A stretch of 64,000 nucleotides of DNA from assembly GCF_026914265.1 (NCBI RefSeq), contig NC_069123.1, positions 51,282,949 through 51,346,948 on the forward strand. The letters run 5' to 3'. Source of the DNA: Mya arenaria. Lineage: Eukaryota; Mollusca; Bivalvia; Myida; Myidae. Numbering within the stretch: position 1 is the stretch's first letter; the number at the start of each line of letters is the position of its first letter. The position numbers were made by a program, and so were the translations under genes. Below, piece by piece: positions 11,669 to 64,000 of the stretch. Below the pieces are notes generated by a model. That model was not told where the DNA came from. It worked only from the letters and a program-made list of their open reading frames with translations, and did not search any database.

Positions 11669-11937
11669 GAAACGGACGGAGCACACAACAGTTTTTGAAA
11701 CAGCTGAGAATTCCCCGTGCAGAAATACAACTGAGGCAATTCTGTCAAGAAATTTTAAATAAAGTTATCATCGGGTTGCACTTGACCACTTAGAAAGCCG
11801 ATTGTGTCGTAAACCGTTAAGCACTAAACACTTCTTCCAATATTGTGCTCATCAATTCTGAGTTTGATTACTATCTATCTCTGTTTAATGTCAACTCCTC
11901 TTCCGAGTGTTCCTGACATGAACGGTGCGCGCCGGCT

Positions 11938-13581
11938 TCACTGTGGGGGAATGGACACCGGATATAGCTCAAAAAGTGATAAATCGATAAGTGTTTGATT
12001 TTGACTCATGGAAAGTTTTCTATAATTTCTTTGTATTTTATGGTTATATATTATCAAACTCGATGTGTTTCGAATTACTTGATCATGTGCAATATAAGAC
12101 TATGATGGAAATGTGTCTCCTCTTTTGTATAATAGCCCAATTCTCGCCGAAAGTAGCATGATCGCTCACAAATGTTCATTTATGTGGTACGATTTCAAAC
12201 ATAAATCAACAAAGTGAAAATCAAAATAAAAACTGAATCGAGCGATTTCTTTGTAATAACATTATCTAGTAATGTGTAAGATATCAATACGATGTTTTGT
12301 TGTTACGGAGATATTCATACCTTTTGATGCCTTGGCGGTGTACTGGGTATAGATGAAGCAAATAAATAAATGCACAGGGGAAAGCTATTAAGTGGACTGG
12401 GGATAGTAACGATGTATTTAGAATCAAGAGACTGTGATAATGATTACGGCCTTTTACCTATACGCGAGCTCGAGGGAAATTGTTCGATGTTGTCCAAATC
12501 GAGGGATGACAGCAAAAAAATGTTGCTGTTTTTTGTATCTGTATGCACTTAGAACTGTTTCATTCATACAGATTAGTTTACCATGATGTGTTTTTCACAA
12601 GCATCAACGTTCGAGTCGCAAATATCTAAATATTTGAAATACGCCAGTAATCTGATTTATTTAGGAACACAAAACATTTGACCGTATAATGTATGTGGTG
12701 TTTGCCATTCATGTATACAGTATTGCTTTGTAAATCAAGTAGGTACGTTTTTGCACACAGAAAGTCATCAGTAGGGAATGAGATATTGTGATCAAATTTG
12801 GAACACGTGAAGCTTTTTTCTAAGCTTGGGTCGATGTTGCTATTACTTAGAACAGAATAATAGTCTCTGCTCGTTCACTTCAGTGAGAAAGTATGTATTG
12901 TGACCAACCCTGACAATTAAGCAGCTTGCATATGTACGTTCATTTAGGTGAGCATGGATCAAACTCATTGTTAACTAAAGTTTGCTCAATAATTTCTTAT
13001 CAAATTGTACTCCCACTTTTTGCAGATTATTTGAAACAGACATACATGTATATTGTATATTAGCAGTGTTACCCTTCAATTTTTGTCCCATTTTACATGT
13101 TATCACCAGCCCACATATCTCAACTTTGAAACTATCCTCAGTACATAATACGGCTATCCCCAGTACAGTACGGTGAACATTTCTAAGGGCATATCTTTAA
13201 CAGTTTAAAAGTTCCATTGCCAGTTCTTACATTAAAAATAGTTGAGCTTATGCTTGTGAAATCCTTCGATTAAGATTTTTTATTCATTTGATATATTTCC
13301 TAAAAATAACAATACTTGTCGAAATTCTGTAAGTTTCGAGGTGATCATCTCAGATTTGAAGAAACATATTATGGGGTCTGCTAATTCGTAAGCACTTTAA
13401 AGTATACCATAGGCCAAATTTGGCATTCAGCTATTAGTGCAAACACTTGTTTCATTTGTGGATACGGTAGACATGCGTTAACACAGCAAGATCTTACCTC
13501 TGGTAAAGAAAAACAACTGCATAATTGTCTGTTTACTTATCACTTTTTGAGCTATATCCGGTGTCCGTTCCCATACAGTGA
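11938..13581. mobile_element. 1.64-kb TIR element without transposase
   Basis: Near-identical inverted ends of about 45 bp are seen. The left begins TCACTGTGGGGGAATGGACA and the right reads the same inward from 13581 with a few changes. Both continue CCGGATATAGCTCAAAAAGT. The interior has no conserved protein, so it is a non-autonomous TIR transposon upstream of MMD exon 1. Flanking bases suggest a short duplication (GCT on both sides), which is not decisive for a superfamily. Confidence 0.75.
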
Positions 13582-13816
13582 GCTTGTTAGTGAAAAAAAT
13601 AAAACACTGATGAGGCAAATAACATCAGAAAAGTGAGAACTAGGGTATAAAAGAGAACACAATTTAGGTAACATGATAAAAAGTGACTGGTGAACTGGTA
13701 AAAGGATAAAAACACTGCTCGCTTATCTAATGCTTAATGGTTGCCACAGCCACTTTGAATGTGTCAGGGGTGGGGATAGTGACAATATGATTTGGCAAAC
13801 TCTTCCAAAGTAAAAC

Positions 13817-20437: not shown

Positions 20438-23400
20438 TTAGATTCTTGGTGGTGCGGTAAATGTGAGCTGGCGGTTGATGCTTCCAGTCAGGTCTTTGAG
20501 GGATCGTTCTTCCTGGAGGGTGGGGGTACCTCGCTGTAAAGAGGTCGCAGACTTGACTGGGGATTTCAACTTGTATGGGGAGACCATTGGGGACTTCCGT
20601 GGAGATTTTTTGGTAGGAGATTTGAAGCAGTCTCTACAAACTGCCCGATACATGTCAGCCCCTCCTATCACTTCTACCTGCAGATTTTAACCAAAAAAAT
20701 TACATGAACGGGAAAAAAATCAGAATGCATATAAAAAATAAAAAAGATAACTGTTCAGCTGAGCTCCATATTAAATGTAGTACAAAGTTCCATTTGATAT
20801 ATGCAAAAAATGGAATTCTCTTAAAGTGTGGTCATTTTTATATGTGCGCGGTTTTCATTATTAATTAAACCAACTCTTTTTTTACTAAATGTACTTCATG
20901 TGTATGTATTTAAATGTTTAATTATCTATCCATAACCATATCCTTAGATCATTTAGATTCTCACCGACTGGTCAGTGGTCATTCTTTTTGTGAAGTAACC
21001 ATCAGAATTACATGTCATGCACACTGCAGACAGCTTGATTACATTTTCTGCCAGTGGAACCAGATTCAAGATGTTTCCAAATCCCTGAAATAAAAGTGTC
21101 CAGTTAATGATAGTAACAATACTTGACACACCAGTGTATTGTTTTTTTTTTAATTTCTATTGAATCACAATGAAAAGTAGTTATTAAAAAAAGTTAATTT
21201 TTACCATATGTAGAAGCAATCTTTGTATGTTTATGTTTATTTAATAACAACGCCTTACATTAAAATTTAAATACATGCAGAATGGCTAAAATGCACTCTA
21301 AAAACTAAAATAAAGAACTTGATCGTATACTTTTATTTTATCTTGTTAAAAGATTTTATCATAGAATTGAAATGTTGGTTAAAATATGTACATAAATACC
21401 ATTTAGATATATCAACATTAGACACTATCAAAGAAGATAAATCTTCGCATTTATTCTTAAAAAAAGATGACACTCTATCAAGCTTTTAAATATAAAATAG
21501 GTTCTCTATCGAAGAGTTTAATCAAATCGGTACCATATGATAGGCAAAGAATAAAAGATAAACAATAACAAAATCTTTTCTTAGCCCAGTGGTCGAAATA
21601 AGCACAAGCCTGTAAGCGATGCACTGGTCAAATGCTTTCTGGGCTTCCTAATCCTGAATTTTATATAGCACCAAGCGCTGCTAAGCATCAGACTTAAGAA
21701 GTTGGGCATGTTCAACCAAAAGATGAATTTCCATGACTGTTAGCCATTACTATTGAAATCAGTTAAGAGCCTACCTTTCTCTGGAATGTTCCATCTAATG
21801 CTGCAACAATGACCACCTTGCCTTTGTCTGCCATCTCATCACAGAACGACACAACATCTGGGAACTGAAGTAGTCAGAAGGAGTAACATACAAGTCTCTA
21901 CATAATGGATGTATTTGTTTAATTTACTCAATTAGAAAGATACAGCACTTTTTTGATACATTTTCACTAAACACTGAAAGAAAAAGTTTTGGTAATAAGG
22001 ACAGTGTTTTTTTTCTGACTAAAAATGGGACTAAAATTCGGCACCACTCACAAAAAAAAAAACCCATCAAGTACTAGAAACAGTATGCTTTTCCCAAAAC
22101 TTTGAATATATTTTTTTTTTTTATGAAGACAACTATTAATAAATCTACTAGTACCGATGTTTTAAAGTGGTCATATTTTCTTTAAAAAGCAGGCTTTGCT
22201 TTCTCTTCTTGAAACAATGGTAAAGTTACAATTTTAGGCATTTGGCGCAATTTTACAATTCAAACGATCCTAGCCTCATTCAAATAACGGAAAAAATGAC
22301 TTCAATTTGTTAAAGTCTTATCTGTAGCACTGCACACAATTATCATATCAACTACTGGAATTATCAACACTTTGCTAGACTTATGTCAGTATGGTTATTT
22401 ATTAACTAGTATGTAATTTATCATTAAGAAAACAAGAACTGTCACGGAGACAGCGCGCTCGACTATTCCGCCGCTTTTCAGTGTAAGGATTGAAAAGTTT
22501 TGGCCAAACATGCATGGATCACTGTTAGATTAGATTTCAATGCAATACATGATGTATTTGCTGAGATATTAACATAAATGTGGTTTTAACCAGAATTTTT
22601 AAGTGTAATAATAAAGGGCCATTATTTGCAAAACACAGTTATCTAACTTGATTATTCAATTAGGTTGGGTGGTTGTATAAAGTCTCAATGCAATTTATCT
22701 AGTAGTTGCTGAGATATTAACCTATGTGTGCTTGCACGCAAAACCTTAACCAGAATTTCTAAGTCAAATAATAAAAGCCTATTTTTTGCATTTAATGCAA
22801 ACAAGAGTTATCTTACTTGGTTAAATAAGTAGGTTGGATGGTTGAGTACCATTGTATCAATTCTCAATGCAATACCTCAAGTAGTTGCTGAGATATTAAC
22901 CTATGTGTGCTTGCACGCAAAACCATAACCAGAATTTCTAAGTCAAATAATAAAGGCCTTTTATTTGCATTAAATGCAAACTAGAGTTATCTAACTTGGT
23001 TAATTGAGTAGGTTGGATGGTTGAGTACCATTGTATCAAGTCTCAATGCAATACATCAAGTAGTTGCTGAGATATTAACCTATGTGTGCTTGCATGCAAA
23101 ACCTTAACCAGAATTTCTAAGTCAAATATTAAAGGCCTATTATTGGCATTAAATGCAAAGTAGAGCTATCAAACTTGGTTAATTAAGTAGGTTGGATGGT
23201 TGAGTACCATTGTATAAAGTCTCAATGCAATACCTCAAGTAGTTGCTGAGGTATTTACCTATGTGTGCTTGCACGCAAAACCTTAACCAAGGGGTGACGC
23301 CGACGCTTGGGTGAGTAGTATAGCTCTCCATATTCTTCGAATAGTCGAGCTAAAAACCTGCACATACAAACTGTCCCTCGTCGATGCCAATGATTTCGTA

Positions 23401-26400
23401 CTGTAGAGCCTCTTCCTCCAGGTCTGCTAGTTTTGTAGCTGCTACTGCTGGAAGTGTTTGTCTGAAAGCAACAACCACATACTGAATATGCTGCTTTGTC
23501 TCAACTGAATACTACAATAGAGAAGAAATCATGTTTCTTCCCCTCCAAGCAGTTAATCATTGCAACATACTGCATACTACAAATAGCAAATGCAGCAGTC
23601 AGAATATAGCACAAGTTCACAACACAGGGTGGGAATTATTTTCACAATGTGAATTTGGCCTCTAAAATTAGTTGCAATAAGAACTAATTTTAATTTCGCT
23701 ATGTGGAGAGTCGTGAACAGTGCTTCAGACTCATTTCCCCAAAAAGAAAAACTTGATGAGGAAAGGCCTTAAGAACAAAACCTATAAATGCATCTAAATG
23801 TAATGTCAAACAAGAGCAGTCACAGACAGCTATATCCCCCGCCTCATGGGGCATTTAATGTAACAACAGCCAATCAATGGTAAGGGTAGTTTCTAAGGAA
23901 CATAAGAAATGTGTAAAATTAAGAAAGGGCAATAACTCTTTCAAACAAGAGCTGTCACAGTATGTGACGAATGCCCCCGAAGGTGACATTGACCTACGAA
24001 CAAGGTCAGTACATGAAAACTTGATCTTGCCTTGACGTGTCAAATACATATGGCAAGTTATTTTAAATTGCCTCTGAACATAAAAAAATACCACCCATAC
24101 TCGACAACCTACACTGTTATGTCCTTATATTCAGAATCCCCTTGTGAATAAACACTTAGTGTATCTTTCACCTTAGAGGAGTGTATCTTTCACCTTAGAG
24201 GTAGGGACATGGGTCTTGCACATGACACGTCGTCTTGGTATGTGGAACACATGTAGCAAGTGATTTTAAAATCTGTCCATACAAGGGAAAGTAACAGCCC
24301 TGACACGACAACCTAAACTCTATGTCCTTATATGCAGCACTCCATTGTGAATAAACAATAAGTGTGACCTTGACCTTTGAGGTAGGGACACGGGTCTTGC
24401 ACGCAACACGTCGTCTTATGTGGAACACATGTGGCAAGTTTTTTTAAAGTCTGTCCATACAAGGGAAAGTTACAGCCCGGACACGACAACCTATACTCTA
24501 TGTCCTTATATGCAGCACTCCATTGTGAATAAACACTAAGTGTGACCTTGACCTTTGAGGTAGGGACACGGGTCTTGCATGCTACACGTGGTCTTGGTAT
24601 GTGGAACACATGTGGCAAGTTATTTTAAAATCTGTCCATAAAAGAGAAAGTTACAGCCCGGACACGACAACTTATACTCATATATATGCAGCACTCCATT
24701 GTAAATAAACACTAAGTGTGACATTGACCTTTGAGGTAGGGACACGGGTCTTGCACGCGACACGTCGTCTTGGTATGTGGAACACATGTGGCAAGTTATT
24801 TTAAAATCTGTCCATACAAGGGAAAGTTACAGCCCGGACACGACAACCTATACTCTATGTCCTTATATGCAGCACTCCATTGTGAATAAACACTAAGTGT
24901 GACCTTGACCTTTGAGGTAGGGACACGAGTCTTGCACGCCACACGTCGGCTTGGTATGTGGAACACACGTGGCAAGTTATTTTAAAATCTGTCCATACAA
25001 GGAAAAGTTATAGAGCCGGCCGGCCGGACGGTGCGCTTTTAATATGCCCACCTTCAGGGGCATAAAAAGGTCAAATTGCAAAAGCCTGACAATATGCGCT
25101 GCGTCACTATATAGTCATAAACGTAAGAGGAATTGCGAAGAAACCAATTTTAAATGTAAAAAAAGGGGCAATAACTCTTTCAAAAATGGCCGAATTGCGA
25201 AAGCCCGACAATATGCCTTGCGTCACTATATAGTCATCAATCTGTGAAAGTTTGGTAGAAATCGCATCAAAACCGTAAGAGGAGTAGCGAAGAAACCAAT
25301 TTTAAATGTAAAATAAACAAATGGCTATAACTCTTTCAAAAATGGTTGAATCGCAAAAGCCTGACAATATGTGCTGCGTCACTATATAATCACCAATCTG
25401 TGAAAGTTTGGTAGAAATCGCATGAAAAACGTAAGAGAAGTTGCGAAGAAACCAATTTTAAATGTAAAATAAACAAATGGCTATAACTCTTTCAACAAGA
25501 GCTGTCACAGAGACAGCGCGCTCGACTATTCCGCTGCTTTTCAGTGTACGGATTGAAAAGTTTTGGCGAAACATGCATGGATCACTGTTAGATTAGATTT
25601 CAATGCAATACATGATGTGCGGAGATATTATCATAAATGTGGTTACGTGCAAAATTTTAACCAGAATGTTTAAGTGTAATAATAAAGGGCCATTATTTGC
25701 AAAACACAGTTATCTAACTTGATTATTCAATTAGGTTGGGTGATTGAATACCATTGTATAAAGTCTCAATACAATACATCAAGTAGTTGCTAAGTTATTA
25801 TCCTATGTGTGCTAACATGCAAGACCTTAACCAGAATTTCTAAGTTGCATAATAAAGGGGCAAAAATTATATAATATTAAAGATAGTTATCTTACTTGAT
25901 TAAATAAGAAGTTTCAATGGACGGGAGCCTGTGTGTAAAGTTTCAATGCAATACATGATGTATTTGCTGAAGCATTGACTTAAAAGTGGTTACATGCAAA
26001 ACCTTAACCAGAATTTCTATGTTGAATAAAAAAGGGGCCATTATTTGAATTTAATGCAAACTAGAGTTATCTTACTTGGTTATTTAAGTAGATTGGATGG
26101 TTGAGTACCATTTTATAAAGTCTCAATGCAATTCATCGAGTAGTTGCTGAGATATTAACCTATGTGTGCTTGCACGCAAAACCTTAACCAGAATTTCTAA
26201 GTCAAATAATAAAGGCCTATTATTTGCATTAAATGCAAACTAGAGTTATCTAACTAGGTCAATTGAGTAGGTTGGATGGTTGAGTACCATTGTATCAATT
26301 CTCAATGCAATACCTCAAGTAGTTGCAGAGATATTAACCTATGTGTGCTTGCACGCAAAACCTTAACCAGAATTTCTAAGTCAAATAATAAAGGCCTATT

Positions 26401-28976
26401 ATTGGCATTAAATGCAAAGTAGAGTTATCAAACTTGGTTAATTATTTAGGTTGGATGGCTGAGCACCATTGTATAAAGTCTCAATGCAATACCTCAAGTA
26501 GTTGCTGAGATATTAACCTATGTGTGCTTGCACGCAAAACCTTAACCAAGGGGTGACGCCGACGCTTGGGTGAGTAGTATAGCTCTCCTTATTCTTCGAA
26601 TAGTCGAGGTAAAAATGGTCGAATCGGGAAAGCCCGACAATATGCGCGGCTTCACTTTATGATCATCAATCTGTGAAAGTTTGGTAGAAATCACATGAAA
26701 AACGTAAGAGGAGTTGCGAAGAAACCAATTTTAAATGTAAAATAAGCAAAGGGCAATTACTCTTTCAAAAATGGTCAAATCAGGTAAGCCCGACAATATG
26801 CCCTGCTACACTTTATGATCATCAATCTGTGAAAGTTTGGTAGAAATCGCATGAAAAACGTAAGAGGAGTTGTGAAGAAACCAATTTTAAATGTAAAATA
26901 AGCAAAGGGCAATAACTCTTTCATAAATGGTCGAATCGGGAAAGCCCGACAATATGCGCTGCTTCACTTTATGATCATCAATCTGTGAAAGTTTAGTAGA
27001 AATCGCATGAGAAATGTAAGAGGAGATGCAAAGAAATGAATGTGGGACGGATGGACGCACACACATGCACGGAAGCACGCCTACCATTACTATATCCCCT
27101 CCCCTTTTCAAGGCGGGGGATAACAATAAATATAATATTTAAACAATAAACAGCTTGTTCTTTTTAAACTGTGCAGGACACTCTAATATTTAAACAGGTG
27201 ACAAATTATTTTTGGGGTTTGCAAACCAATGGAGTCAACCGACTAGTTTAATTTTGAAGATTTTGACTACAGCAAAGTAGACATGACAAGTCTTTAATGG
27301 CAATATAACCGTTGCAAGGTTACACAAATAGTACAAGTCCTTATTTAAAGCATATCAAGCCCAGCAGGCTGTGATAAAAAAATATTTTCATGTTTTTCCT
27401 ATTGCACTTTTAGTGTCTTTTTGCTTAATATTCTCACCAGATAATAAATTAAAACATCAAATTTGTTCTCGAAAAATTGATTTTCATTCAATCACTTGCA
27501 ATACTGCATAGGGTAATTTATTATTTCAAGCAAGTTACAAAACTGACCTGTCATGTGTTGCAATGTTTTCCTTATCATAGCGGATATCTTTCGCATACTT
27601 GACCACTAGACAGCTGTAGTTGGCAATCTGGTAGCGCTTCATTCTCCTCATCAACTCTGTTCTGTTGAACACAATTTTATAAAAGATGTGAAGAATTTTG
27701 AAGAAAATATTTAAATGAAGTTATTAAGATTTTTCCATAGAATACCTGCATGCAAAAAACAACAATAAATATCTATTTACTGATATATTCATTTAAAAAG
27801 TTACAGCTTCCTGACGTTTAAAAATAAACCTTAATTTGATCTTTGTACTGGTCTTACAACCTGGCTTAGAATGGCGTATTTGAAATATTATACTTACGTT
27901 TTACCAGAAAACATGGGTCCAAAGATAACCTGCAAAATTGAAATAAAATAATAATTTTAAGTGAAGTTTGAAAGAGATTGTTGGAATTCAATTTAGGGAG
28001 TGATTTGTCTAATTCAAAAATGGTTATAACAATATATATATAAAATTTTCTTTATGGAAAATATGTTGTTAACACAGTACCAGGTTTTATTCAATGTAAC
28101 AATGGACATTTTTACATTTCACATAATTTAACAAGTCTAAATAAAACTTCTGTTGGTCTTAATATATAGCAGTGTCAGTGTTATTTTATTTTTTGTAGAT
28201 TCAATATTGGAGATTAAACTTATGGTGTAAAATGCTTATAAATATTTACATTTGATGATATGCCAGGGGGTGCATGTTCCTTGCAAACTTTGCAATTCAT
28301 TTTGTTCACAATGTTCAGCGTATTGACAGAGTATGCAAGATCGATGTTCAGGCCATTCATTCATTTTTTTTACAGATTTTAATAAAGAAGTAACAATGCT
28401 GTCAGTTGTTTCTGATGATTTTATAGTCTTAGGACGTCTGCTCGTTTCTCAATTTCTATCCATAGAGGAAGTGCATGGGTGAAAGTTGGAAATTATGAAA
28501 AACCTGAAATATTTTGCTGGGGGTCCCCGGTGGGTCCAGGACAAAACCCTGATAAAACTGATGCCTGTCTTAAAGTACTTTAATATATGGCTATTAAAAT
28601 AATATTTTGAGTTTTTACCAACAAGTTCATACACAAATACAAAGATTTTAATTCATTTGGTCAATAAACTATCAAAATAACAATTATTTGTAGAATATAA
28701 ACCCTTCATATACATGTATACAAAAAAAAATAAAAAATATTGATTAAAATGAATGAGTTCTGAGTGGATTTCAAGTTTTGAGTGGATTTCACGCTCGATT
28801 CCTGTATCACCCTGTACCCTCTTTAACCTATCTCAAATGAAGGAGTTTGCAAAATTGCTTTATTGGAAACTGATAATATTCAGGTATTTTATTTTAATAC
28901 AGCTTACCTGAATATTGCCCATTTTCTTTGCATGACTTATGATCGGAGAAGATATAGCTGGGGAAGATGACATCAT
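20438..28976 (-). CDS. TK1: Thymidine kinase, cytosolic (TK1 type)
   Basis: Phosphorylates thymidine to dTMP in the salvage pathway using ATP. Seven exons: 28908-28976, 27898-27929, 27548-27661, 23368-23461, 21775-21864, 20965-21084 and 20438-20677. All are GT-AG and in phase, giving 252 residues (human 234). The P-loop is [14 protein letters not shown] (about 27-40). The Mg/ATP motif [12 protein letters not shown] has D99, E100 and Q102. The lasso/thymidine region is [20 protein letters not shown]. Zinc ligands are C155, C158, C187 and C190 (CMTC and CRDC). The start follows the match to other TK1 N-termini; a frame stays open upstream to about 29057 but is not conserved. The C-terminal tail has [14 protein letters not shown] repeats and no KEN box. 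Large introns hold nested repeats. Confidence 0.95.
22433..23353. mobile_element. Pearl/HINE-like element, copy C'
   Basis: Begins AACAAGAACTGTCACGGAGA with CGCGCTCGACTATTCCGC and ends TTCGAATAGTCGAGCT, so the ends carry the short inverted motif CTCGACTATTC. The interior has about four tandem units of roughly 180 bp containing GGTTGGATGGTTGAGTACC and GTAGTTGCTGAGATATTAAC. A sister copy lies at 25497-26613. The right end lies about 12 bp from the donor of TK1 exon 23368-23461. Confidence 0.75.
23944..25068. mobile_element. Pearl/HINE-like element B, nested in A
   Basis: Starts ACAAGAGCTGTCACAGTATG with GAATGCCCCCGAAGGTGAC; ends CCACCTTCAGGGGCATAAAA, the inverted counterpart. About five tandem units of roughly 180 bp carry GTGTGACCTTGACCTTTGAGG, CTTGGTATGTGGAACACATG and GGAAAGTTACAGCCCGGACA. 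The flanks (CTCTTTCAA / AAAGGTCAAATTGC) belong to element A. Confidence 0.75.
25497..26613. mobile_element. Pearl/HINE-like element C, nested in A
   Basis: A sister copy of the element at 22433-23353 with the same ends (ACAAGAGCTGTCACAGAGAC with CTCGACTATTCCGC, and TTCGAATAGTCGAGG) and the same ~180-bp core units. The surrounding bases are element A core (GGCTATAACTCTTTCA before, AAATGGTCGAATCG after). This gives the order of insertion: A first, then C. Confidence 0.75.
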
Positions 28977-29109
28977 TTTGACCACTTTCCAAAAAGTGAA
29001 TAACAAAGAAACAATTGATATTGCGCGAAAATCTATACAAATTTCCCTCCAACACAATCAGTGTTACCTAAACGCTTAGTTCGACGCGTAAACGTTTGAT
29101 ATTCAATAT

Positions 29110-29975
29110 ATTTATTGATCCAAAAGAAAATAATGACATGTAAAATTCGGCTTCTCAGTGGTTTAGTAGGTTTAGAACTTTCACTGGACTTCCTAACAGC
29201 TACAAAACCACAAAGCAAAAACATTCACATATTCACAGACTGCCAGGGAGCAATATTAACAGCATTTTCAAGAGAGATTCCCAAGAATACAATTGAAACC
29301 GTTTTTAACATAAAAACATATGTAACAAGTTTAGAGGACAATGGTAATACACTCCATGTGCACTGGATACCGGGACATAAAAACATAGAGGGAAATGAGC
29401 TGGCTGACAAGCAGGCAAAAGAAGGGGCTAAGAAGGCAGCAGAATTTGATGAAGCAGAATTCAATGATGAAAAGAAAGATGCCAGTGATGTCATGCAAAT
29501 GATGAAAAGAAAAGCCATTAATGAAAAATGGTTAGCACAATACCGTTACTCTGAGAGGTCTTTCGCCATACATAACATCTTTGTCACACCAGGGGTCAGA
29601 AACTGCGGTGGTGAAAAGAAAAGAAAAAGTTTCAGCCAAATCAACCAACTCCTTGGGGGTCACACCTGGCTAAAAGATCACTGGTCAAAACAGACACCAG
29701 ACCAAACAGACAACTGTTGTAGTGTCTGCCAAGTTCCTGAAACTGTAGACCACTTCATATTCTACTGCAAAAAGTACGATGAAGCTAGAAGAGGACTGGG
29801 AGAAAGAACATTGCAAATACTATACAGACATTGAACACCCAATGCAGCAATTACGTTGGGGTTACTAGCGGTAGAAATAGAAGAAATAACGAAAAGTGCG
29901 AAAGAAGAACTGATGGATTCATTAAAGCTTATATCTGTCGGAAACAAGCAGGCTATAAATATTTCATTTGATTAG
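29110..29975 (+). pseudogene. LINE ORF2 3' fragment with RNase H domain and CCHC-like end
   Basis: From about 29140 the plus strand encodes LSLDFLTATKP, HIFTDCQGAI and HVHWIPGHKNIEGNELADKQ (RNase H Asp and His/Asp motifs), then LLGGHTWLKDHW and CCSVCQVPETVDHFIFYC, a Cys-Cys-His-Cys cluster. TGA at 29832-29834 interrupts the frame; TPNAAITLGLLAVEIEEI follows in the same frame to about 29970. The order RNase H then CCHC fits I-group LINEs. The 5' part (endonuclease and RT) is absent. The apparent start upstream of 29140 is not LINE-like. Confidence 0.85.
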
Positions 29976-40100: not shown

Positions 40101-43100
40101 AAACCTTCCTAGTGGACTTCTCCAGACTCCAGCCAGACAGTGAGTAAAGTTTGAGCAAAATGTACAGTCATAATAGCCATGTCATAGGATTGATCTAATA
40201 AGATGAAATATCAAAGTCTGATGATGTGACATTTAAGTTCTGTTTTTTGCTGAGTTTAAATATTCTTAAAATATCTAGAAAGTGAGTTAATGTATCCTAG
40301 ATTAATACAGATACATTAATGACTTAACAAGTATGAAACAATTTTATTTTTTTTAAAAACAACTGATCATCTTTTCTGTATGATGTGTCACATATTCTCC
40401 CTTCCATACTTGTATCATGTTTGTGTTTCAGCAACATTGACAGGGTCGATGGGTGCTTGGTTGGATGAGGATGATGAGGAGGCAGACCCGGAGTACAACT
40501 TCCTAGAGGAGCAGGAGGAGTTTGACCATGAAGACTTCCGCAATGACAGGGCCGTCAAGGTCTCAAGTATGTTAATTTGTGTGTTGAATTTCTTCTACAT
40601 ATAGTGTATTCAGCAACAACAGTGCAAGTCACCATTGTGTAAATGTATAAGTGGAATTACTTCTTTTCACATTTGTTTGATCTCACAAACTCTTTATTTC
40701 AGTTATTTTCATAATGCCATACAAGAACTATCTTGGTCTCCTGAGATGGCATTTTACATGATATTTAAATATACAGTGTATTATGCAATGAAAGGAATAT
40801 TAGGTTCTCTAAAACATGGTATGGTTTATTCATTTTAACAACATGAATGAAAATTATTCTGAAAATGAATTCTGAATTCGTCTTATTAGCAGTGATTGCA
40901 GTGTTAAGTAAGCTATGTTGAATACATCATATTTTGCCAACATTTATTTCTCATACTCCAGAGCGTGAGGTGAACCAGCTGCTGGATGAGCTGTACTCCT
41001 CTCTCGGCGACAATGACCCTCTCAATGAGGATGTCAGGCAGTCCATCAAAGTACAGTCAGAGAAAATTGTGTATGTACACATTGCTTTGATGCTTTCAAA
41101 TAATGCTTTTCTTGTGTTGGTTTTTAGCTCTACTGGCCAAAGGCCAGAAGAGCTTATGTGATGATAATGTGTATGTAGTATGTGCGTCTGTTTGTCTGTA
41201 AACAATTGCTTGTGAACACGATACAGTCTTCAGTTTAGATTGTATCTCGATGAAACTAGTATTTAGATATACATTAGAGCTCGATTCCTTTCGAAAACCA
41301 GCCAGATCCGCCTATGCATGCCTAGATTATGGGCCTTGAAAGTATTAAAAAATCAGTGCATCTGTAAACAATTGCTTTTGAACACGATACAGTCTTCAGT
41401 TTTGATTGTATCTCGATGAAACTTGTACAGTATCTAGATATCCATTAGAGCTCGGTTTCTTTCGAAAACCAGCCAGATCCGCACATGCATGCCTAGATTA
41501 TGGGCCTTGATAGTATAAAAAAATGCTATTGTGTAAACAATTGCTTGTGAACACGATACAGTCTTCAGTTTTGATTGTATCTCGATGAAACTACTACAGT
41601 ATCTAGATATCCATTAGAGCTCGGTTTCTATTGAAAACCAGCCAGATCCGCCTTTGCATGCCTAGATTATGGGCCTTGAAAGTATAAAAACTATCTGTGC
41701 GTCTGTAAACAATTGCTTGTGAACACAATACCGTCTTCAGTTTTGATTGATGATGAAACTTGTACAATATTTAGATATCCATTAAAGCTTGGTTCCTATT
41801 TAAAACCAGCCAGATCCGCCCATGCATGCCTAGATTATGGGTCTTGAAAGTATTAAAAAAATGCTATTTTTAGCTGTGTCTATTCTTAGCCAAGTCTACA
41901 TGAGCAATGTCTATTTTTAGCCAAGTTTACATGTAAAGTCACAATTGCTTGTGAATGTTTGTTCAAATTATGCCCCTGGGGTCATTACTGGCCATGCCCC
42001 GGGGTTCACAGGTTTGGTATACTTAAATTGGGAGTTGTTAAAAACCTTTTTGTCTGAAACAGCTATGCAAATCCTTGCTATTTTGAACTAGGCTTAATTT
42101 AGTGGTCCACTACCATGGTTGTTCAAATTATACCCCTTGGGTCAAAACTGGCATTGCCCCGGGGTTCACAAGCTTCCTAGGGACTTATTTAAGAAATATT
42201 TTCAAAATCCACAAGGCCCATACCTTTGATATTTGTTGTGTAGCATCATATGATAACCGTCTAGCAAGACATTTGAAATTATGCCCCTTGGGCAAAATCT
42301 GGCCCCACCCCTTTTGACTTACTTTTTAATTTTTAAAGCTACAGCAATGAGATTTTGACCATGTGTACTGTTTTGCAAATGAGCATCAATGTTGGCCTTG
42401 GATGTCCTTGACTTTGACCAACTTTTTTTATTTGTAAAGCAACAGAAATAAAATGTTGACCATGAGTACAGTTTGGAAGCAAATATTTTTTACCCTCAGA
42501 TTACCTTTACTTGGCACATATTAAAATAGTTCATGCAACTAATCTGCTTACAACACTTTCTGTCCTCAGATGTTGAACGTGCAGCGTTTTCAGCTTACCC
42601 AAACACAAAAAGTGAACTATATATTTGTTGCCTATTACTCATACGTACATGCTCTGGATTGAAAATGACCACAAGAGCCATGCCAGTAGAGCATAGGCCC
42701 TCTTGGGCCTCTTGTTTAATTTTTGATTGATCTCTATGTCTTAAGGTTAAAGCATTTTCTTCATTGTGCAAAAAAAACAACAAGAATATGGATTAAACAA
42801 GTTTCATCAGATTTCCCCCACTAAATAATCTGATATTGTTATTATAAATGTGTGCAGGCTTCACAGTGACACGAGGAAGCGCTATGAGCAGAGGCTAATT
42901 CTGGAGATTGGGGATGGTGAACGACGACAGATACACGATCAAATGAGGAAGGTAGGTGATATAAAAAATAATTTATTTACTGTCATACTGCAACACATAT
43001 AAAAAGCGGGAATTATTTTAACTTGTTGTTTTGCTTATTAATTTTTTCTTTCATAAATTTTGTTTTTATCTTATTTTGATACTTAATTTCGTGACAGTTT

Positions 43101-49100: not shown

Positions 49101-52100
49101 TCTCCATTTCCTAACTACTTTCAAATTTACAGGGTGAGGACAATTTGCATTTTGTAGTAGTCAGTTTAACAGAAGCAAGTCTGATAGCAAATGCAAATAT
49201 TTCGTGAATCATGTCTGGTTACCTTTACTTATGTATAATATGTTTTTTTAGGGCAGTGATGGTGACGATACACAGGGGACAGAAGAAGATAGCCAGGATG
49301 AGAGCCAGGAGGAAGACGATGCCCACCTCGCTCACCTCATGGCCGCTAGCTCCACTCTCAGGTACATGATCACTCAATGAAAGGAGTATCTTTTCTCTGT
49401 TTGGGAATAATTATCGGACAAGTTTAACCAATACTATTGTACTCTACACACAATAAAGTTGTAAAGGGGTATTTATTGACCTATTTCTGACCTCTCCCAG
49501 ATATGAGCCGGTGCGTGATGAGGACCTGACGCGAGCCAGACTAGGGAAAAAGAGCCGGGACAGGGATCTCACCCTCGCCCTTCTGGCACCAGACATTGTA
49601 GAGGCAGACCCACAGGTATGGGCTTGTGATAGATATGTGTTTGCATTCTCTGTGACTCCTCCCTACCTACTTTAACTCTTGTAAATGGATGACCATATAA
49701 AAAGGAAATCATTCCTAGCATTATTTTTAGAAGAAAATGCAAAGCGGGTCAATTTCAGACCACGCGATAGATGGCAACTGTCAAATGTTAAGTCACTTAT
49801 AAAAATTGAATTTTGCAATAAACGCTGTAAAAGTGACCTTTAAAATAAATAAGATTTCAAATTAGCTCCCAATGTTATCCACTCTATTTTACATTTATCA
49901 GTAATGTAAGATGGATACTGTTAATTCATTTAAGGGAGACCTGCGTGATACATTGTTTGTGCAGTCTTATCTGGCCCGTGTAAAGAAGGCCCTGCGAGGG
50001 GATGTGGACACACTTGAGAAATTCCTTACACTCATGGCCAGCTTCACCAAGACGGACGCCACTCCTGTAGGGGTATGTACCGGCCTTAGGCTGATGGCCT
50101 TGATTGAGCTTATACTTATATTATTCAATTTATCACCATGAAAGATTAGATTCTTATTTCCAGCCCTCCCTTCTTAACTTTCTGAAAAAACTTTGCCTTA
50201 TTTGTCATGCAAGGAGTGTTTGTTTGTTAGATTGATTGATAATTGTCGTAAAAAAGAGCTTTTCAGTACTTTGAAGTTGATCTAGTTTTTCTGTCCCCCA
50301 GCTGTACCAGGAGTTGAAGGTGGTGTTCTCCAGCTATCCGGAGCTGCTTGCAGACTTTGCCAGCTTCCTGCAGCCCGAGCAGGCTCTCCAGTGTGATTGC
50401 TACCAGGCGTGTATGGAGTTTAAGCAGGCCAGAACTTTCCTCAGGAAACTGGAGGTAGAACAGATTCTCTGGCTTATGAATTAAAAGCTGGTTTAATGAT
50501 GTGTGTCTGCTTATATTTATGTAAAATTTGAAGGATGGAAATAAATTATTTATATATGTACAGTATTCTAACATCTTTTATTTCAAAATTGTGTTAGAAA
50601 TTAATACATTCTATTTCTTTCTGTTAAAGATGCACTCTTACTCCCAAATAAGATTTACTATAATTAAAACAATTGTCTTAATATACCAAAAAGGAAGAAT
50701 AAATGTCAAAAACAATGGTTCTTATGAAGAATACCAAGTTTAATTTAAAAGAAAGGTGCAGACAACACGGTATTTTACCTTATAAGACAATAGTAGACCA
50801 CAGTAAATCTTTTAGCAACCACTAATCATTTAAAAAGATATTGTGTTTTAAGCTTTTAAATGCATGGTTACAGTCTTGTTATCAGTAATTAATATTTTCC
50901 ATAAATGCATTATTTAGTAAGTAGTTAAAGGTTCATCACTCAAAATTTCACAATAATATGAGTTGTTTTCACCTCATTGATCTTTACTCTGTGTGTTTCA
51001 GATTTACTTCAGTAAGAATATGGGCCAGTACCAGCGTGTGATGAGAGTGATATCTCGATGGCAGAGGAAGCCTGGGGGTCGGGAGGCGGAGCTACGTGAT
51101 ACAGTGGAGCCCCTTCTCAAAGGCAACAGGCACCTGCTGGACGAGTTCTCAAGATTCTTCCCGCATGATCGGCCCTCGGAGAGGTACACAGGGTCAAATG
51201 TTGTTTCTTATTTTCAGATATGAGTAGTCTTCTCACTGCAGTTAAATAGCATTCTTATATCTATGACAGCTTGTAAATTCTTTCTCCACATATGGCTTTT
51301 GTAGATAAAGACTGTGTAAAGAATTTTGTCACTGATCCAACTTAACAGAGTAGTCTAATAATAATAATACATTCAATACAAGCTTAGTAAAGCTTTTGTG
51401 CTTAGTAGTTTATGACTGTTTTAAGTAGAAATATTTTACATGTTTTCAGCAGCTTATGCAAATTTAAAGAAAGTGCTTTTATGATAATGTAAAAGATGGA
51501 TGAAAAATGATCAGCTTGTATATATCCTTGAATTTGTATAAACACATACTGGTTTCCACCCTGCAGCATGCTGGATGAGTTTGAGGAGATTCAGCTGTCT
51601 GGGAGTGGCGGGGAGTCACCACAGGCGTCCAGCTGTGAGGAGATCTCCCTGCTCGAGCTCGAGGAAACACTAGGAACCAAACGGTGTACTTGCAAATGCC
51701 ACTCAACTGGAGACGACGTGTACAAAATGAGAAAAAAACACTGTTACTCATGCTGCCTCACTGTAAGTCCCTGGAAATACTGGAATAGACCTGGGTTGGG
51801 GATAGTTTTGAGTCTTTAAAGTTGGGCTGTATATTTTAATACAGGAAAATAGTATTTTAAAAAATGATGTCAGCAATATGTCATAGCTTCTTCCATTGTT
51901 GCCAAAATCTTTATATAAAAAAAGTTGTTGCCAAATAAACTACACACTGTGAATCTCATTATTCTTGTAAGAAGTGTTCCTTTACTCTTTATCGTTGATA
52001 CATTGACTTGTGAACTTTCTGAGATTAAAACATTGATTGCTGCCCAAGTTTGTCATTTTTAATAGATTTCAAGTTTGACAATATGAAATTTTTAGTTTAT

Positions 52101-58100: not shown

Positions 58101-58196
58101 TATTTGTAGGTTCAGACACGGTTCAGCCACCTGTACAGGGTGATATTTGGTGGTTCAGCATTCAGCGACAAGAAAGAGGACAGTTCATCCAGCTGA
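34188..58196 (+). CDS. GON4L: GON-4-like protein (chromatin/transcription co-regulator)
   Basis: 31 coding exons, about 2,907 residues: 34188-34747, 36406-36548, 36885-37021, 37666-37797, 38058-38174, 38678-38854, 39092-39178, 39959-40139, 40432-40566, 40962-41070, 42858-42951, 43185-43271, 43422-43596, 44530-44689, 44882-45032, 45553-45674, 45928-46050, 46302-46408, 46551-48736, 48865-48974, 49252-49361, 49501-49615, 49935-50072, 50302-50454, 51002-51183, 51567-51762, 53299-53646, 53813-55942, 56964-57031, 57603-57705, 58110-58196. All are GT-AG. Conserved blocks: INVKSIIHKIITNESVV, EPKLTRAKLKQ, LRTRSKCPLKD, DPEYNFLEEQEE, DFRNDRAVKVS, EDNLLAMGL, RIKNLRANAAKDN. Then come an AT-hook-like PRGRPRT (about 1516), a Sin3 PAH-like region (about 1773-1930), CxCxCH/CxxC cysteines, a Lys/Arg-rich nuclear signal (about 2780-2815) and a C-terminal SANT/Myb-like domain. 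Exon 45553-45674 is one base short and shifts frame. In vertebrates GON4L works in the nucleus with YY1/Sin3-type complexes. Confidence 0.93.
34800..35240. repeat. Diverged tandem dispersed repeat in GON4L intron 1
   Basis: Two to three weak units share CTATGTAACTTCTTGACAG / ATGAAACTT(A/T)TGTC and GTGTGCA-type blocks spaced about 160 bp apart. The style is that of other tandem-core repeats here, but the ends are not definable. Confidence 0.35.
37107..37132. repeat. TA microsatellite
   Basis: A run of about 12 TA dinucleotides in a GON4L intron. Confidence 0.9.
37463..37479. repeat. Poly-C run of 17
   Basis: A homopolymer of 17 C in a GON4L intron, followed by TCAGAAGC. It is prone to length error in sequencing. 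Confidence 0.9.
39330..39850. repeat. Tandem dispersed repeat in GON4L intron
   Basis: Three diverged units of about 170 bp share a GACAATTA(A/T)G(A/T)TAG block next to a (G/C)AAGGCxATCAGACA-like block. No coding potential. Confidence 0.5.
41127..42716. mobile_element. Pearl/HINE-like element in GON4L intron
   Basis: Begins TAGCTCTACTGGCCAAAGGC and ends GCCAGTAGAGCATAGGCCCT with TCTTGGGCCTCTTG, so GCTCTACTGGC is inverted at the two ends. Four tandem units of 165-169 bp (starts near 41203, 41368, 41537 and 41706) carry AACAATTGCTTGTGAACACG and CCAGCCAGATCCGCC. A second, non-tandem half follows. The left end is about 57 bp from the splice donor at 41070. Confidence 0.75.
52500..52740. repeat. 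Dispersed repeat fragment in GON4L intron
   Basis: Contains CCATCCATCCATAGGTCCATC and GGGATTGACTTCAAACTTCA, blocks of the type common in mollusc repeats. No ends or duplications are visible. Confidence 0.35.
55943..56963. repeat. GON4L intron holding tandem dispersed repeat
   Basis: Between 55980 and 56650 there are three weak units of about 170 bp with blocks such as GAGATAAATCA, TATATGCACAGAGTATA and GTC(C/A)GGG(C/T)T(G/T)TA. The rest of the intron shows nothing. Confidence 0.4.
57140..57545. repeat. Dispersed repeat in GON4L intron
   Basis: Opens with the imperfect hairpin ATACTCCTGCAAATGCAGAA then GGGGAGTATATTGG, an end type shared with other mollusc non-autonomous elements. The right end is not clear. 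Confidence 0.4.
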
Positions 58197-58795
58197 AGAG
58201 GGTGATATTTGGTGGTTCAGCCACTTATACAGGGTGATATTATGTGGTTCAGCCACTTATACAGGGTGATATTTGGTGGTTCAGCATTCAGTGACAAGAA
58301 AGAGGACGGTTCAGCTTTCCGTACAAAGTGATATTAGATGGTTCAGTAATCTTTACAGAGTGAGATTTGGTGGTTCAGCAATCTGTACAGGGCGATATTT
58401 GGTGGTTTAGCAATCTGTACAGGGCGATATTTGGTGGTTCAGCCATCTGTACAAGGCGATATTTGGTGGTTCAGCAATCTGTACAGGGCAGTATTTGGTG
58501 GTTCAGCAATCTGTACAGGGTGATAATTGGTGGTTCAACAATCTGTACAGGGTGCTATTTGGTGGTTCAGCCATCTGTACAAGGCAATATTTGGTGGTTC
58601 AGCAATCTGTACAGGGCAATATTTGGTGGTTCAGCAATCTGTACAGGGTGATAATTGGTGGTTCAGCAATCTGTACAGGGTGATATTTGGTGGTTCAGCA
58701 ATCTGTACAGGGCAATATTTGGTGGTTCAGCAATCTGTACAGGGCGATATTTGGTGGTTCAGCAATCTGTACAGGGTGATATTTGGTGGTTTATC
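58197..58795 (+). repeat. 32-bp tandem array in the GON4L 3' UTR copied from the last coding exon
   Basis: About 17 units of 32 bp, consensus GGTGGTTCAGCAATCTGTAC plus AGGGYGATATTT, start directly after the stop codon. The unit equals the coding stretch of the last exon that encodes HLYRVIFGGSAF (58128-58163). One larger block near 58270-58310 also repeats CATTCAGTGACAAGAAAGAG from the same exon. Because 32 is not a multiple of three, three units make a 96-nt cycle. The array reads through without a stop in all three forward frames over about 58367-58859. Confidence 0.9.
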
Positions 58796-59269: not shown

Positions 59270-60649
59270 AATTTCATGACAGAGTTAAACTTACACCCTG
59301 AAGTTTTTCAGTGCCATTTTAAGTTTGAAGCATTACCATCATTTTTTACCTCATTTCTACTTGACTTTTTTCCCAAAGAGGATACAGACAATATATTGTC
59401 ATAAGTTCATAAAAATAAAGGCTTTGTGTCACTGTCAGAGTCATCATTATGGTTACATAACTATGGCCACAACTCAATAACCATACAGAATATCCTTGTG
59501 CAACATTGTTACCTGTGATAATATGTGTAACAAAGATGGTAACTTAAAAAAACAACAGTGATTGACAAAATGTTTTGATCAAGTGTATAACTCAACAGAA
59601 TTTACTTTACAGTACAGTCAAACCTGGTTGAATGGTCACCTGCTTTTTAAAGGCCTTCTGCCTTATCAGACCACTCCAAATACCCCCCTTACGTTTTATC
59701 TGTATAAAGTATGTGCATAAAGCCGCCAACTTTCTAATGCGGCCACATATAAACACTAATTAGCGGCCACTAATCCCTTGTCATTGACACTTCTAATAAT
59801 AACATTTATCAATACACAGCTGTAATTGCATACTGAAGATTACGTTATGGTACGACAGCCTCAGATATTTCCATCATCCAGTGAAAATGCATATAAAATC
59901 ACACAATTGCCATTCGTGTTTACTCATTGAGAAATCATGTTTATAACACGTTGGCCAACATTTTGATCAAAATTGAAGATACTGACATTTGTCATAGCAT
60001 TGTATCATTCAAAAACTTTAAACTTGTCCATCACTAAAAATAATGTAATGTTTCCAGTGACTGTTCTTTGGCTTAAATAATAGTTACGACCATTACCATA
60101 TATCTGCATATTTATTCTTGCTTTTTGAGGTCTTGTGACAATTTTGTCCACACGAAACTTCAGTGGTAGGCTGTCCTTGACCAAAACATGACCCCTATTG
60201 ATCTTGAGGTTAAAAGATCAAAATTGAAGGTCAACATTTTTAAGAAAGGAATATCTACGCAATAACTAGAGAATGGTTTCACCTAGGACTATTAAGTTTA
60301 ACAGATTAGGTTTTCATTGAGCAGCTGATGAACCCTATTGTTTATGCGTTTAGTAGGTCAAAGGTCAAGATCACTCACATCAGTCTTGTGAAATCTTTTG
60401 TCTTCGAAGTAACTCAAGAACGGAAGAACCTATGACCTTGAAACATGGTAGCTTGTCCTTTACTAGACTGATCCCTATGTAGGGGAGCAGATCTAAGATC
60501 AAGGTCACGTTCGAAAGTCTTATATAAACTTTATCCGCAATTCAATCTTTCGCATGATTTGACACAGCTGCGCTCAGGGAACATTAAACTCAATTGTCGT
60601 AAATCCTGGGAATGAATATGACAAGAGCATAATTTCAAATAAAGGTGAG
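59270..60649. other. Intergenic gap between converging genes, with repeat fragments
   Basis: A fragment at 59620-59780 holds ACAGTCAAACCTGGTTGAAT and AGCGGCCACTAAT, typical of a dispersed animal repeat. A fragment at 60150-60540 has AGGTCAAAGGTCAAGATCAC and ATGACCTTGAAACATGG, related to the tandem-core elements. No gene is seen. Confidence 0.5.
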
Positions 60650-60655
60650 TTTATT
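60650..60655 (-). terminator. Candidate poly(A) signal of the right-edge minus-strand gene
   Basis: TTTATT on the plus strand, AATAAA on the minus strand, about 670 bp after the stop codon of the exon at 61328-61517. It suggests a 3' UTR facing the GON4L end tail to tail. Confidence 0.4.
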
Positions 60656-61327
60656 TATACAAAGGAATAAAACATCAACAGTAATACTGATAAGAATATA
60701 AAAAAACTGTTCGGTGAAACACACGAATATATGGATCTAAAAATATTCATTGCATGAAACAATTACACATACAAAGTATCTGAACCATACCCTTTTTGCT
60801 AACCATTATACAAATGCCATTATGTCAAAAATATAATGAAACACAAGAGTAGGCTTTTCAGCAGTGTTAAAAATCCTAAAAAAAACTATTTTCATTTAGC
60901 TATGCTAAAATTCCTAACAAATTCTATAAAAACTAGAATGTGCATTTACAGGTACACAATAGATTAGTGTTATAAAACCAACATGCTGTTAATGTAATAC
61001 AGAAATACATCATGCAATGTAATACCATTGTGCTGCATACAAAAAATCAGATAAACCCTCATGGTCTTTGGCTGCATCTACGGTTTGCTCAACATTATTG
61101 TTAAAACAAATCAGTTTATGAAACAAGAAAAACTTAACAAAGTCTTATAATAAAAAATAACAATAGAATTGCAAAATGCGCCAAAATGTAATAAAAACCA
61201 CTTTGTGTCAAAGAAAACAGGACTAGTATCAGTCAAGCTAATATTAACAGTAAATAACTAAATAAAAACACTTCATTAAACATTCTAGTACTAGAGACTT
61301 GGTGCAGTTGGAATCACTGATCCTTGA

Positions 61328-61517
61328 TCAGTACCTACGGCACACAGGGATAGGCTTATGAGCTGGCACTATATCGGCCTTCAGCATACTCAGGCTATTT
61401 CCAAGAAAGTTGAACTCCCGCCTTAACGCATAGTTGCTCTTGTCCACCACGGGACCATTTCGACTGTGATCGTATTGACGCTGCTCACGCTCACGCCCAG
61501 TTTTGTAGTACGTTAGC
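61328..61517 (-). CDS. Candidate terminal exon 1 (most distal) of an unidentified gene
   Basis: Acceptor TTTAAACTCAG|G, then one base completing a codon, 62 residues and TGA. The peptide begins LTYYKTGREREQRQYDH and ends ADIVPAHKPIPVCRRY. It is basic and polar with no membrane segment. It shares its entry phase with the three exons at 61748-61892, 62246-62387 and 63091-63340. The family is not recognised; the body of the gene should lie right of the window. Confidence 0.6.
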
Positions 61518-61747
61518 CTGAGTTTAAAAATTCCAGATATTTTTCTGTGCACTGACACGCAAATGTTATGATTTTAACTTGTTACCCAAGCCTATTATCT
61601 ATGCTTAATGACAGATGACTTGAAGTGAAGTTATTACCATTTCTAAGTATACATATGAGAAAAAACACCATATTAGGGAGCTATGAGTGCATGATTCATT
61701 ACTTGTGCAAGCAGATGATACTTGAACATTATTATGTTCATGAAATA

Positions 61748-61892
61748 TCAGACTTTGAAGTGTGGTTTTCGAGGAGGCAGCTCATTTAAAGGAACTATAA
61801 AGCTACGTTCTGGCGGATTCATTAATGGATTAACATTATCTTCCCCTTCATTTAAGGCCCGACACCGCCTATGCCGTATTCTGTCAATGTTA
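61748..61892 (-). CDS. Candidate terminal exon 2 of an unidentified gene
   Basis: Strong acceptor (ATTCTTTTTGCTCTTTCAG|T), then 47 residues in the shared phase and TGA. The peptide begins NIDRIRHRRCRALNEGED and ends with NELPPRKPHFKV. It is Arg- and Pro-rich without a recognised domain and without similarity to the neighbouring candidates. Confidence 0.6.
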
Positions 61893-62245
61893 CTGAAAGA
61901 GCAAAAAGAATATTTTACAAGAAATGGTCCACCTACAACACCAATAACAAAGTTTTATCTCCCAGCACCAACAAGGGGAAAATCATGTACTTTTTAACAT
62001 GCAGAAGTGAATGATGCAGCCAAAGAAAACATGAGCAAGTGCATCAGTTAGGCAAACAATATGTACAAGGGAAGTCATGAATTGCACTCATAAATTTGGC
62101 AAAAAAAGCACCAAACTTGGGATAACATGCACAGCAAAGCAATATATATGTATGACAAAGTAGAAATTAAGTAAAATGGTGTAACAATAATACTGACTGG
62201 TGAGTGTCAACAATAAAACACTATGCTTTTGAAACAGAAGGTGAT

Positions 62246-62387
62246 TCACTTGCTTGGGTGAAGAATGTCATATATTTGATCTCGCTGAATTTTTTTCAGT
62301 GACTCAGGGGTCTTTTTTCGGATGATATCTTCTTTAGGGCGCCGAACAAATTTCTTAGTTTTCTGTGGAGGGTTTAAAGAACATTCC
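62246..62387 (-). CDS. Candidate terminal exon 3 of an unidentified gene
   Basis: Acceptor TGTCTGCTTGCAG|G, then 46 residues in the shared phase and TGA. The peptide begins ECSLNPPQKTKKFVRRPK, is strongly basic, and ends with RDQIYDILHPSK. It has no recognised domain. Confidence 0.6.
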
Positions 62388-62690
62388 CTGCAAGCAGACA
62401 TTGCCATGCAAAGTGTTAATAAGCATGATAATTATAATACTTTGTTATTGGTAGAAAATGCATTTAATGCTACATGTATAAACAATTGTGTCCCTACCAC
62501 AAGGTAAGGAACTATAACAAGCATTTAAGGACATCACAAAATGCATTTCAACTTAATATAAGAATGACTGATCATGCATCAGGGCAACTTAATCTGTTGA
62601 TCAAGCATACAAGAAAGTGTGCATTTTAATGTTGTGCTCCAACACGTAATTAGGAGGTTATAGTATGTGTATTAAAGGTGAACAGACTTT

Positions 62691-63067
62691 TAAGGTATCC
62701 CATGCACGACTGTGTGAAATTTAGATGCCTGGTGACCCCATAATAACTCCGGTATCATTTGAAAGGTTGTTATGTGTGTGAGAAGGAATTTGTTAAACAT
62801 ACACTAAAATTATGAAAAAACTATCTTGGCGTTGATATATGGCATTTCAGGTCCAATTTCTGTTAATATAAATAACAAAAACAGAAAGTGCAATCACTTC
62901 TCCATGGTCTCTTATTTGGGGTGATTATTTTATATATCAGTAATCAGCAGGCTATTCCGAATCAAATGGTACCAAAATTATATGCAGTCACTAGCATCAA
63001 CACTTTAACATTATCACCAATGGCTCGATAAAAAGACATAAACATTAGTACTTCGGATACCTTAATA
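62691..63067. mobile_element. Small TIR (MITE-like) element
   Basis: About 375 bp bounded by TTAAGGTATCC and its inverted form GGATACCTTAA. No reading frame. It sits between terminal-exon candidates 3 and 4. A TTA-type duplication is possible but not certain. Confidence 0.55.
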
Positions 63068-63090
63068 GTCAATAAAGATGCAACAAACGC

Positions 63091-63340
63091 CTAATCAAGG
63101 TGACCGGAAATGAAACTTTTGTCTATATTGACACCATCATGTTTACTAGCCATTTCAAAACGACCAACATTTAGATTATATCTTCTGTTGTTTTTATTTT
63201 CATCTTGAGTATAATCAGAATTCACTTTTCCAGGATAAACAACAGCATAGGCAAGATCACAGTGTGGATTTAAGCTCTGTCTTTGACGATATCGGTTGTT
63301 AAAGCCCGCTGAATTTACACGAAATTTTTCCAATTCATTC
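63091..63340 (-). CDS. Candidate terminal exon 4 of an unidentified gene
   Basis: Strong acceptor (TCTATTTCCAATTTTCAG|G), then 82 residues in the shared phase and a stop. The peptide begins NELEKFRVNSAGFNNRYR, contains NPHCDLAYAVVYPGK with an ITIM-like LAYAVV, and ends with DKSFISGHLD. It is polar throughout, as a cytoplasmic tail would be. No known family is recognised. Placed most 5' of the four good candidates, it would be the first terminal exon reached by splicing. Confidence 0.6.
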
Positions 63341-63759
63341 CTGAAAATTGGAAATAGAAATTGAGACACTTGACAAGTGTAAGCCATAATGCCTCAAACA
63401 AGTCCTGTTGTTAAACCACTTAAGCAATGATGTGAGGGACTTGATCACAGACAAACCTACTAAGAATCTATTGTATCAAAAGTCTATTACTCTGTTATCA
63501 ACGCTGGAAGCAAAAAATAATTTATTTAAAGGTAATTAAGATTTGGATCGCAATAATCGTTTCTGATTTTGTACAGAACTGAGCAGTTATTACAGCATTT
63601 TAAACTTGGTCATTTTGACACGTAAATGATGAAACAGTTATTCAGACAACTTCTCACTGCAAATTTTAAAACATGTAACCAAGTCCATTTAATAAAAAAA
63701 GCTTTATTTCAAATGCAATTCAGGATGGTAACTAAAGATAGTTAACATAAATGCCCTTT

Positions 63760-63799
63760 TCAGAGAGGTAACTGGTAACTATTTTCTGGTGTACTCTTC
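63760..63799 (-). CDS. Weak fifth terminal-exon candidate
   Basis: Acceptor CATCATTCTGTAG|G, then 12 residues (KSTPENSYQLPL) in the same phase and TGA. It is so short that chance is a fair explanation. It is listed because the phase again agrees. Confidence 0.2.
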
Positions 63800-63806
63800 C
63801 TACAGA

Positions 63807-64000
63807 ATGATGTGTTAACCAATAAAGCTGAGCTTGTACTTGCAAATTGCCAATTAAAGTTGAGGAGGGGTGCATTCCAATAACACAGTTATTTGCAACT
63901 TCACATGTTGATTGCAGTGTCATAGGCAAAAGGAGTTTGGTACAATTTTGTAATAATACTATTTATAATGAGGCTGTATCAAAATGAAAGCAAGTTGCAA
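63807..64000. other. Right edge of the window, no recognised feature
   Basis: AT-rich DNA, presumably intron of the minus-strand gene that enters from the right. Confidence 0.3.

Follow-up and report, generated by a model that had tools for sequence, protein, structure and literature searches.

Does the minus strand near the end of this Mya arenaria DNA carry the 3' end of a gene with several interchangeable last exons? The first-pass annotation had proposed this for positions 61328 to 63799 of the window (the whole stretch of 64,000 nucleotides that was analysed), on the grounds that four stretches each have a 3' splice acceptor, one base that completes a codon, an open frame and a stop, and that all are entered in the same phase, so that one upstream donor could be joined to any of them.

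Structure of the four candidate exons

The sequence was described accurately: each of the four minus-strand stretches has a YAG acceptor, one leading base, an open frame and a stop codon, and the entry is in intron phase 2 in every case. In the order of the minus strand these are candidate terminal exon A (63091..63340, acceptor TTTCTATTTCCAATTTTCAG, 82 codons, TAG stop), candidate exon B (62246..62387, acceptor ATGGCAATGTCTGCTTGCAG, 46 codons, TGA stop), candidate terminal exon C (61748..61892, acceptor TATTCTTTTTGCTCTTTCAG, 47 codons, TGA stop) and candidate terminal exon D (61328..61517, acceptor TCTGGAATTTTTAAACTCAG, 62 codons, TGA stop). The acceptor of C is the richest in pyrimidines among the four (15/17, with the preceding AG at 40 nt), followed by those of A (14/17, AG at 28 nt), D (10/17, AG at 27 nt) and B (9/17, AG at 52 nt). 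The frames of A to D are all already open for 15-21 codons 5' of the acceptor; thus, acceptor and frame opening do not coincide. A fifth stretch on the same strand (63760..63799) does have the proposed acceptor at 63799 (10/17 pyrimidines), yet the frame behind it is open for no more than 12 codons, and it probably arose by chance.

The four encoded peptides are indeed mutually dissimilar and basic, with net charges of +2, +7, +3 and +6. Common ancestry of the four tails was considered and rejected, as their similarity is not significant (best blastp E-value 0.80). No convincing copies of the four exons were found elsewhere in the window: the best tblastn E-value beyond the exons themselves is 0.79.

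Chance level of the cluster

The frequency of such clusters was determined for a region of 2,800 nt (64000-61201, minus strand), counting frames of at least 46 codons behind acceptors scored over 17 nt. With a threshold of 9/17 pyrimidines, which keeps all four candidates, at least four frames in one phase were found in 57/400 dinucleotide shuffles, and the same pattern is present in 57 of 164 overlapping real tiles from elsewhere in the window, with its coding parts retained. At 8/17 the region holds two phases with four frames apiece, and a phase with at least four is seen in 102/400 shuffles and 89/164 real tiles; at 10/17 three of the four candidates survive, and three are reached in 77/400 shuffles. 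Given these frequencies at thresholds of 8-10/17, the bare pattern of an acceptor followed by a frame is ordinary: the sequence facts behind the four-exon cluster are right, but in the form in which it was proposed the cluster does not exceed chance.

Rarer outcomes are obtained with an AG-exclusion filter and with stricter settings, six in all, which were picked post hoc with the data already seen: four frames in one phase at 9/17 with a 25-nt AG-exclusion filter occur in 18/1000 shuffles and 2/82 tiles, and with a 28-nt rule in 12/1000 shuffles and 1/82 tiles; three in one phase at 10/17 in 54/1000 and 6/82; two frames with acceptors of 13/17 or better in 4/1000 and 2/82; and the pair of A and C, with acceptors of at least 14/17, is matched in 2/1000 and 1/82 without any AG rule and in 1/1000 and 1/82 with the 25-nt rule. 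The 28-nt rule passes only three of the four candidates, because the AG preceding the acceptor of D is at 27 nt. Within the 2.8 kb, 10 acceptors reach 12/17 pyrimidines or more; of these, A and C alone open at least 46 codons, both in the same phase.

Coding signal of the individual stretches

Codon-position asymmetry was compared with a null of equal-length stop-free stretches from unmasked parts of the window. The asymmetry of A is 36.2, a value reached by 0/355 null stretches (null maximum 24.2; the stretches overlap and are therefore not independent, and by a rough count there are 21 separate open runs of this length among them). The median asymmetry of presumed coding blocks of the same length is 19.1. 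The value of D is reached by 135/1489 such overlapping stretches, that of C by 1138/3903 and that of B by 1775/4157. As a positive control, presumed coding blocks were hand-picked from long open reading frames, with transposon-like ones among them: 16/26 blocks of 82 codons are above the 95% point of the null, and for the shorter lengths these are 11/35 (62 codons), 10/49 (47 codons) and 11/52 (46 codons). At these low pass rates, the test can say little about B, C and D. By asymmetry, A is thus strongly coding-like and D weakly so, while B and C resemble noncoding frames, at low power for lengths of 46-62 codons.

For codon usage, a model was trained on the long open reading frames of the window and scored against 143 background stretches, many of which may be real exons; background stretches score as high as or higher than A in 142/143 cases with the synonymous score and in 66/143 with the full score, and as high as B in 41 and 29, C in 109 and 30 and D in 24 and 19 of the 143, respectively. 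For B and D the full score is highest when read in the proposed frame, whereas A and C do not score best there. With a simpler codon model, C is the only one of the four that does not score best in the proposed frame, and B alone has a score above zero. Codon usage therefore speaks against A, despite its strong codon-position asymmetry, and lends no support to C. GC content rises sharply at D (0.51, flanks 0.33/0.31) and less at B (0.39, flanks 0.29/0.30) and C (0.42, flanks 0.36/0.31), with no rise at A (0.34, flanks 0.38/0.34). Altogether, only one or two of the four stretches show any sign of protein coding.

Donor sites and polyadenylation signals

GTs located beyond the first 10 nt of each exon were scored out of 9 against the donor consensus. 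Exon A has no phase-2 GT in this range, C has a single one, GCGGTGTCG, which scores under 6/9, and D has four, all under 6/9. A, C and D thus lack a phase-2 donor of at least 6/9 and each is easier to read as a terminal than as an internal exon. Exon B has one weak internal phase-2 GT and a phase-2 donor, CAAGTGAAT, that scores 7/9 and is located at 62249, exactly at the stop; its use would make B an exon of 138 nt with phase 2 on both sides and its end at 62250. Donors in other phases, which speak against the terminal reading, are present in A (a phase-0 site of 7/9 at 63225 plus two sites of 6/9), in C (two of 6/9) and in D (one of 6/9).

The sole AATAAA on the minus strand between the stop of A and position 60500 is at 60650..60655; it follows D and likely marks the 3' end of the gene. 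Further minus-strand copies are located upstream of A (63708 and 63526), within A (63198, which counts against A as a candidate) and, as the next one past 60655, at 60116. Exon A is followed by other hexamers, ATTAAA at 62630 and 62468, TATAAA at 62934 and AATACA at 62673; the first of these (62625..62630, minus strand) has a T-rich stretch after it and may be a poly(A) signal of its own for A. B is followed by one GATAAA (61959), and between the stop of C and the acceptor of D none of the ten hexamers sought is present. The positions of these hexamers suggest that A and D can each have a 3' end to themselves, and that B and C would share the end of D or use weak signals.

Alternative last exons as the preferred reading

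Our preferred reading is that the region is the 3' end of an animal gene on the minus strand in which two or more of the four candidates serve as alternative last exons, A being the first choice, D the second and C a possible further one. We hold this tentatively, at somewhat under even chances. For A and D, which have strand and phase in common, it is the simplest single account, and to this extent the earlier proposal of alternative terminal exons stands; B and C, however, are without independent coding support. A is favoured as a last exon because of its strong codon-position signature, its strong acceptor and the missing phase-2 donor, and D because it is GC-rich and precedes the AATAAA at 60655. 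The scarcity of pairs such as A and C behind acceptors of 14/17 or better also favours this reading, at settings picked post hoc.

Acceptors, phases, frames and signal hexamers are seen directly in the sequence, whereas exon use, poly(A) sites, a donor further upstream and regulation are inferred. The gene body and the shared donor would lie beyond position 64000, outside the window, and an upstream exon ending two bases into a codon would either be spliced to A or skip past it. Splicing to A would lead to a proximal 3' end, with the poly(A) site near 62630, and splicing past A to a downstream acceptor would lead to an end near 60655; every choice would give the protein its own short C-terminus with a net positive charge. 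As no canonical signal is present from the stop of B or of C to the next acceptor, these two would use the 60655 end together with D, and the choice between the three would then be a choice of acceptor inside one long last exon.

A search for an upstream exon in 63341-64000 found nothing convincing: there are three donors of at least 6/9, none of them preceded by a phase-2 frame of more than 24 codons. The frame of 24 codons, with its donor at 63904, is a weak candidate.

The main competitor, which we consider rather unlikely, is a single ordinary 3' end with one true last exon, most probably A, or else D, and with the other stretches being chance frames in AT-rich intron or UTR sequence. It is consistent with the abundance of such clusters in shuffles and real tiles (57/400 and 57/164) and with B and C not being separable from null frames by asymmetry, a test of low power at 46-47 codons; moreover, any one frame of 46-47 codons stays open with a probability of about 5-6%, and the last 4 kb of the minus strand offer 42 acceptor-like sites with 10/17 pyrimidines or more. 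It has to contend with the fact that A and D each carry some independent coding signal, in the same phase and on the same strand. At the opposite extreme from several last exons, none of the four stretches may be coding and the region may be non-coding intergenic or intronic DNA. The full codon scores, unremarkable for all four (66, 29, 30 and 19 of 143 background stretches are as high for A, B, C and D), are compatible with this, but many of these background stretches may be real exons themselves, the asymmetry of A is above that of every null stretch, and D combines a GC peak with a plausible poly(A) site; we therefore regard it as very unlikely.

A different role for B is also conceivable, if improbable: B could be a 138-nt cassette exon, phase 2 on both sides, that is spliced to D, with A either forming a proximal end by itself or ending another gene. 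The apparent TGA stop would then belong to the donor (CAA|GTGAAT). The donor at 62249 scores 7/9 and keeps the frame, and a phase-2 exon that runs into a GTGA donor is expected to meet a TGA immediately; however, a GT at a stop is frequent by chance, as any G-ending codon before a stop creates one, and C has no comparable site, as GCGGTGTCG, the sole phase-2 GT counted in it beyond the first 10 nt, scores under 6/9.

Possible long-range RNA pairing

A repeat scan identified a 19-nt inverted pair with 95% complementarity between 62434-62452 and 61940-61958, with the arms about 47 nt before the acceptor of B and about 48 nt before that of C. The arm at 62434-62452 also forms a 17-nt pair (94%) with 61135-61151, past D. 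The duplex energies are -21.4 kcal/mol for the arms before B and C and -13.5 kcal/mol for the pair with 61135-61151, and the predicted fold of 62480-61871 retains 18/19 pair positions. Across the window, the core motif is found in three exact copies, which all fall within the candidate region, and in one mismatched copy at 45855; four such matches were found in 0/100 shuffles. The best stem score, on the other hand, is equalled in 48/300 shuffles and in 10/17 real plus-strand tiles, and RNA pairing as a regulator is therefore kept as a lead only. If it operated, binding of 62434-62452 to 61940-61958, or more weakly to 61135-61151, would loop out B or B, C and D. That a single gene has four alternative tails and that the choice of the downstream acceptor is steered by long-range RNA pairing, in the style of docking-site competition, we consider highly improbable.

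Homologues and comparison with known systems

No family was found for any of the four peptides in a Pfam search, and a PDB search returned no convincing relative, its four weak hits (E-values 0.44-0.77) looking like chance. Searches of IMG/VR (A alone, D alone, B and C joined) and of GTDB genomes (A to D joined) found no relative either; both collections hold viral and prokaryote DNA, and absence from them says little. The whole window has no match in Rfam at the gathering threshold.

A receptor or channel tail had been suggested by the annotation, which pointed to the ITIM-like string LAYAVV in one of the four peptides. The string does fit the ITIM consensus, but when the four peptides are shuffled with their composition preserved, 34% of the shuffles hold at least one such match. 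As there is also no family or structure match, the receptor or channel reading is unsupported, although a basic tail would suit a receptor. No transmembrane-like segment is present in 63341-64000, where the best mean hydropathy over 19 residues is 1.23.

Alternative last exon splicing in itself is a well known kind of splicing (PMC8904962, PMC9470587). In Drosophila neuroglian (nrg) and erect wing (ewg), Elav is described to inhibit 3'-end processing at proximal ends (PMC8904962), and the arrangement proposed here is similar in that a proximal or a distal last exon would be chosen, with different C-termini as the outcome (PMC8904962). Unlike nrg and ewg, the present locus has up to four candidates, known from sequence alone, and B and C are without a canonical poly(A) signal of their own. 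Crustacean Dscam1 is described as one cell-surface receptor with variable cytoplasmic tails (PMC5465998). Here, in contrast, 63341-64000 shows no transmembrane segment and the four peptides match no family, and the resemblance is conceptual only. Among the literature matches listed, none describes, by its title and the start of its abstract, a bivalve or mollusc gene of such a kind. Confirmation of four interchangeable tails by RNA would make the locus a compact natural example of how an animal gene diversifies its C-terminus; as things stand, it mainly illustrates how readily phase-matched clusters of acceptors and frames appear in AT-rich animal DNA.

Other features of the window

The candidate gene points tail to tail towards a probable multi-exon gene on the plus strand (34188-55954), which has large exons of biased composition and presumably resembles GON4L. 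This plus-strand gene encodes a paired amphipathic helix repeat at 50981-51220 (PF02671, E-value 1.9e-5, above Pfam's cut-off). An RNase H-like open reading frame on the plus strand (29100-29834; PF00075, E-value 3.8e-8) is probably derived from a retroelement. The region 10201-13600 contains an inverted repeat with a stem score of 479, compared with 29.5-48.5 in the other 16 plus-strand tiles, and is perhaps a mobile element; at about 10.45-10.98 kb, open reading frames on opposite strands share a string of 11 residues. Long tandem arrays are found at 1265-1928 (unit of about 23 bp), 3560-4782 (about 35 bp), 7885-9150 (about 146 bp), 22673-27036 (about 156-181 bp), 41187-41862 (about 169 bp) and 58120-58791 (about 32/64 bp), and fragments that resemble the 146-bp array are seen again at about 60.2-60.4 kb.
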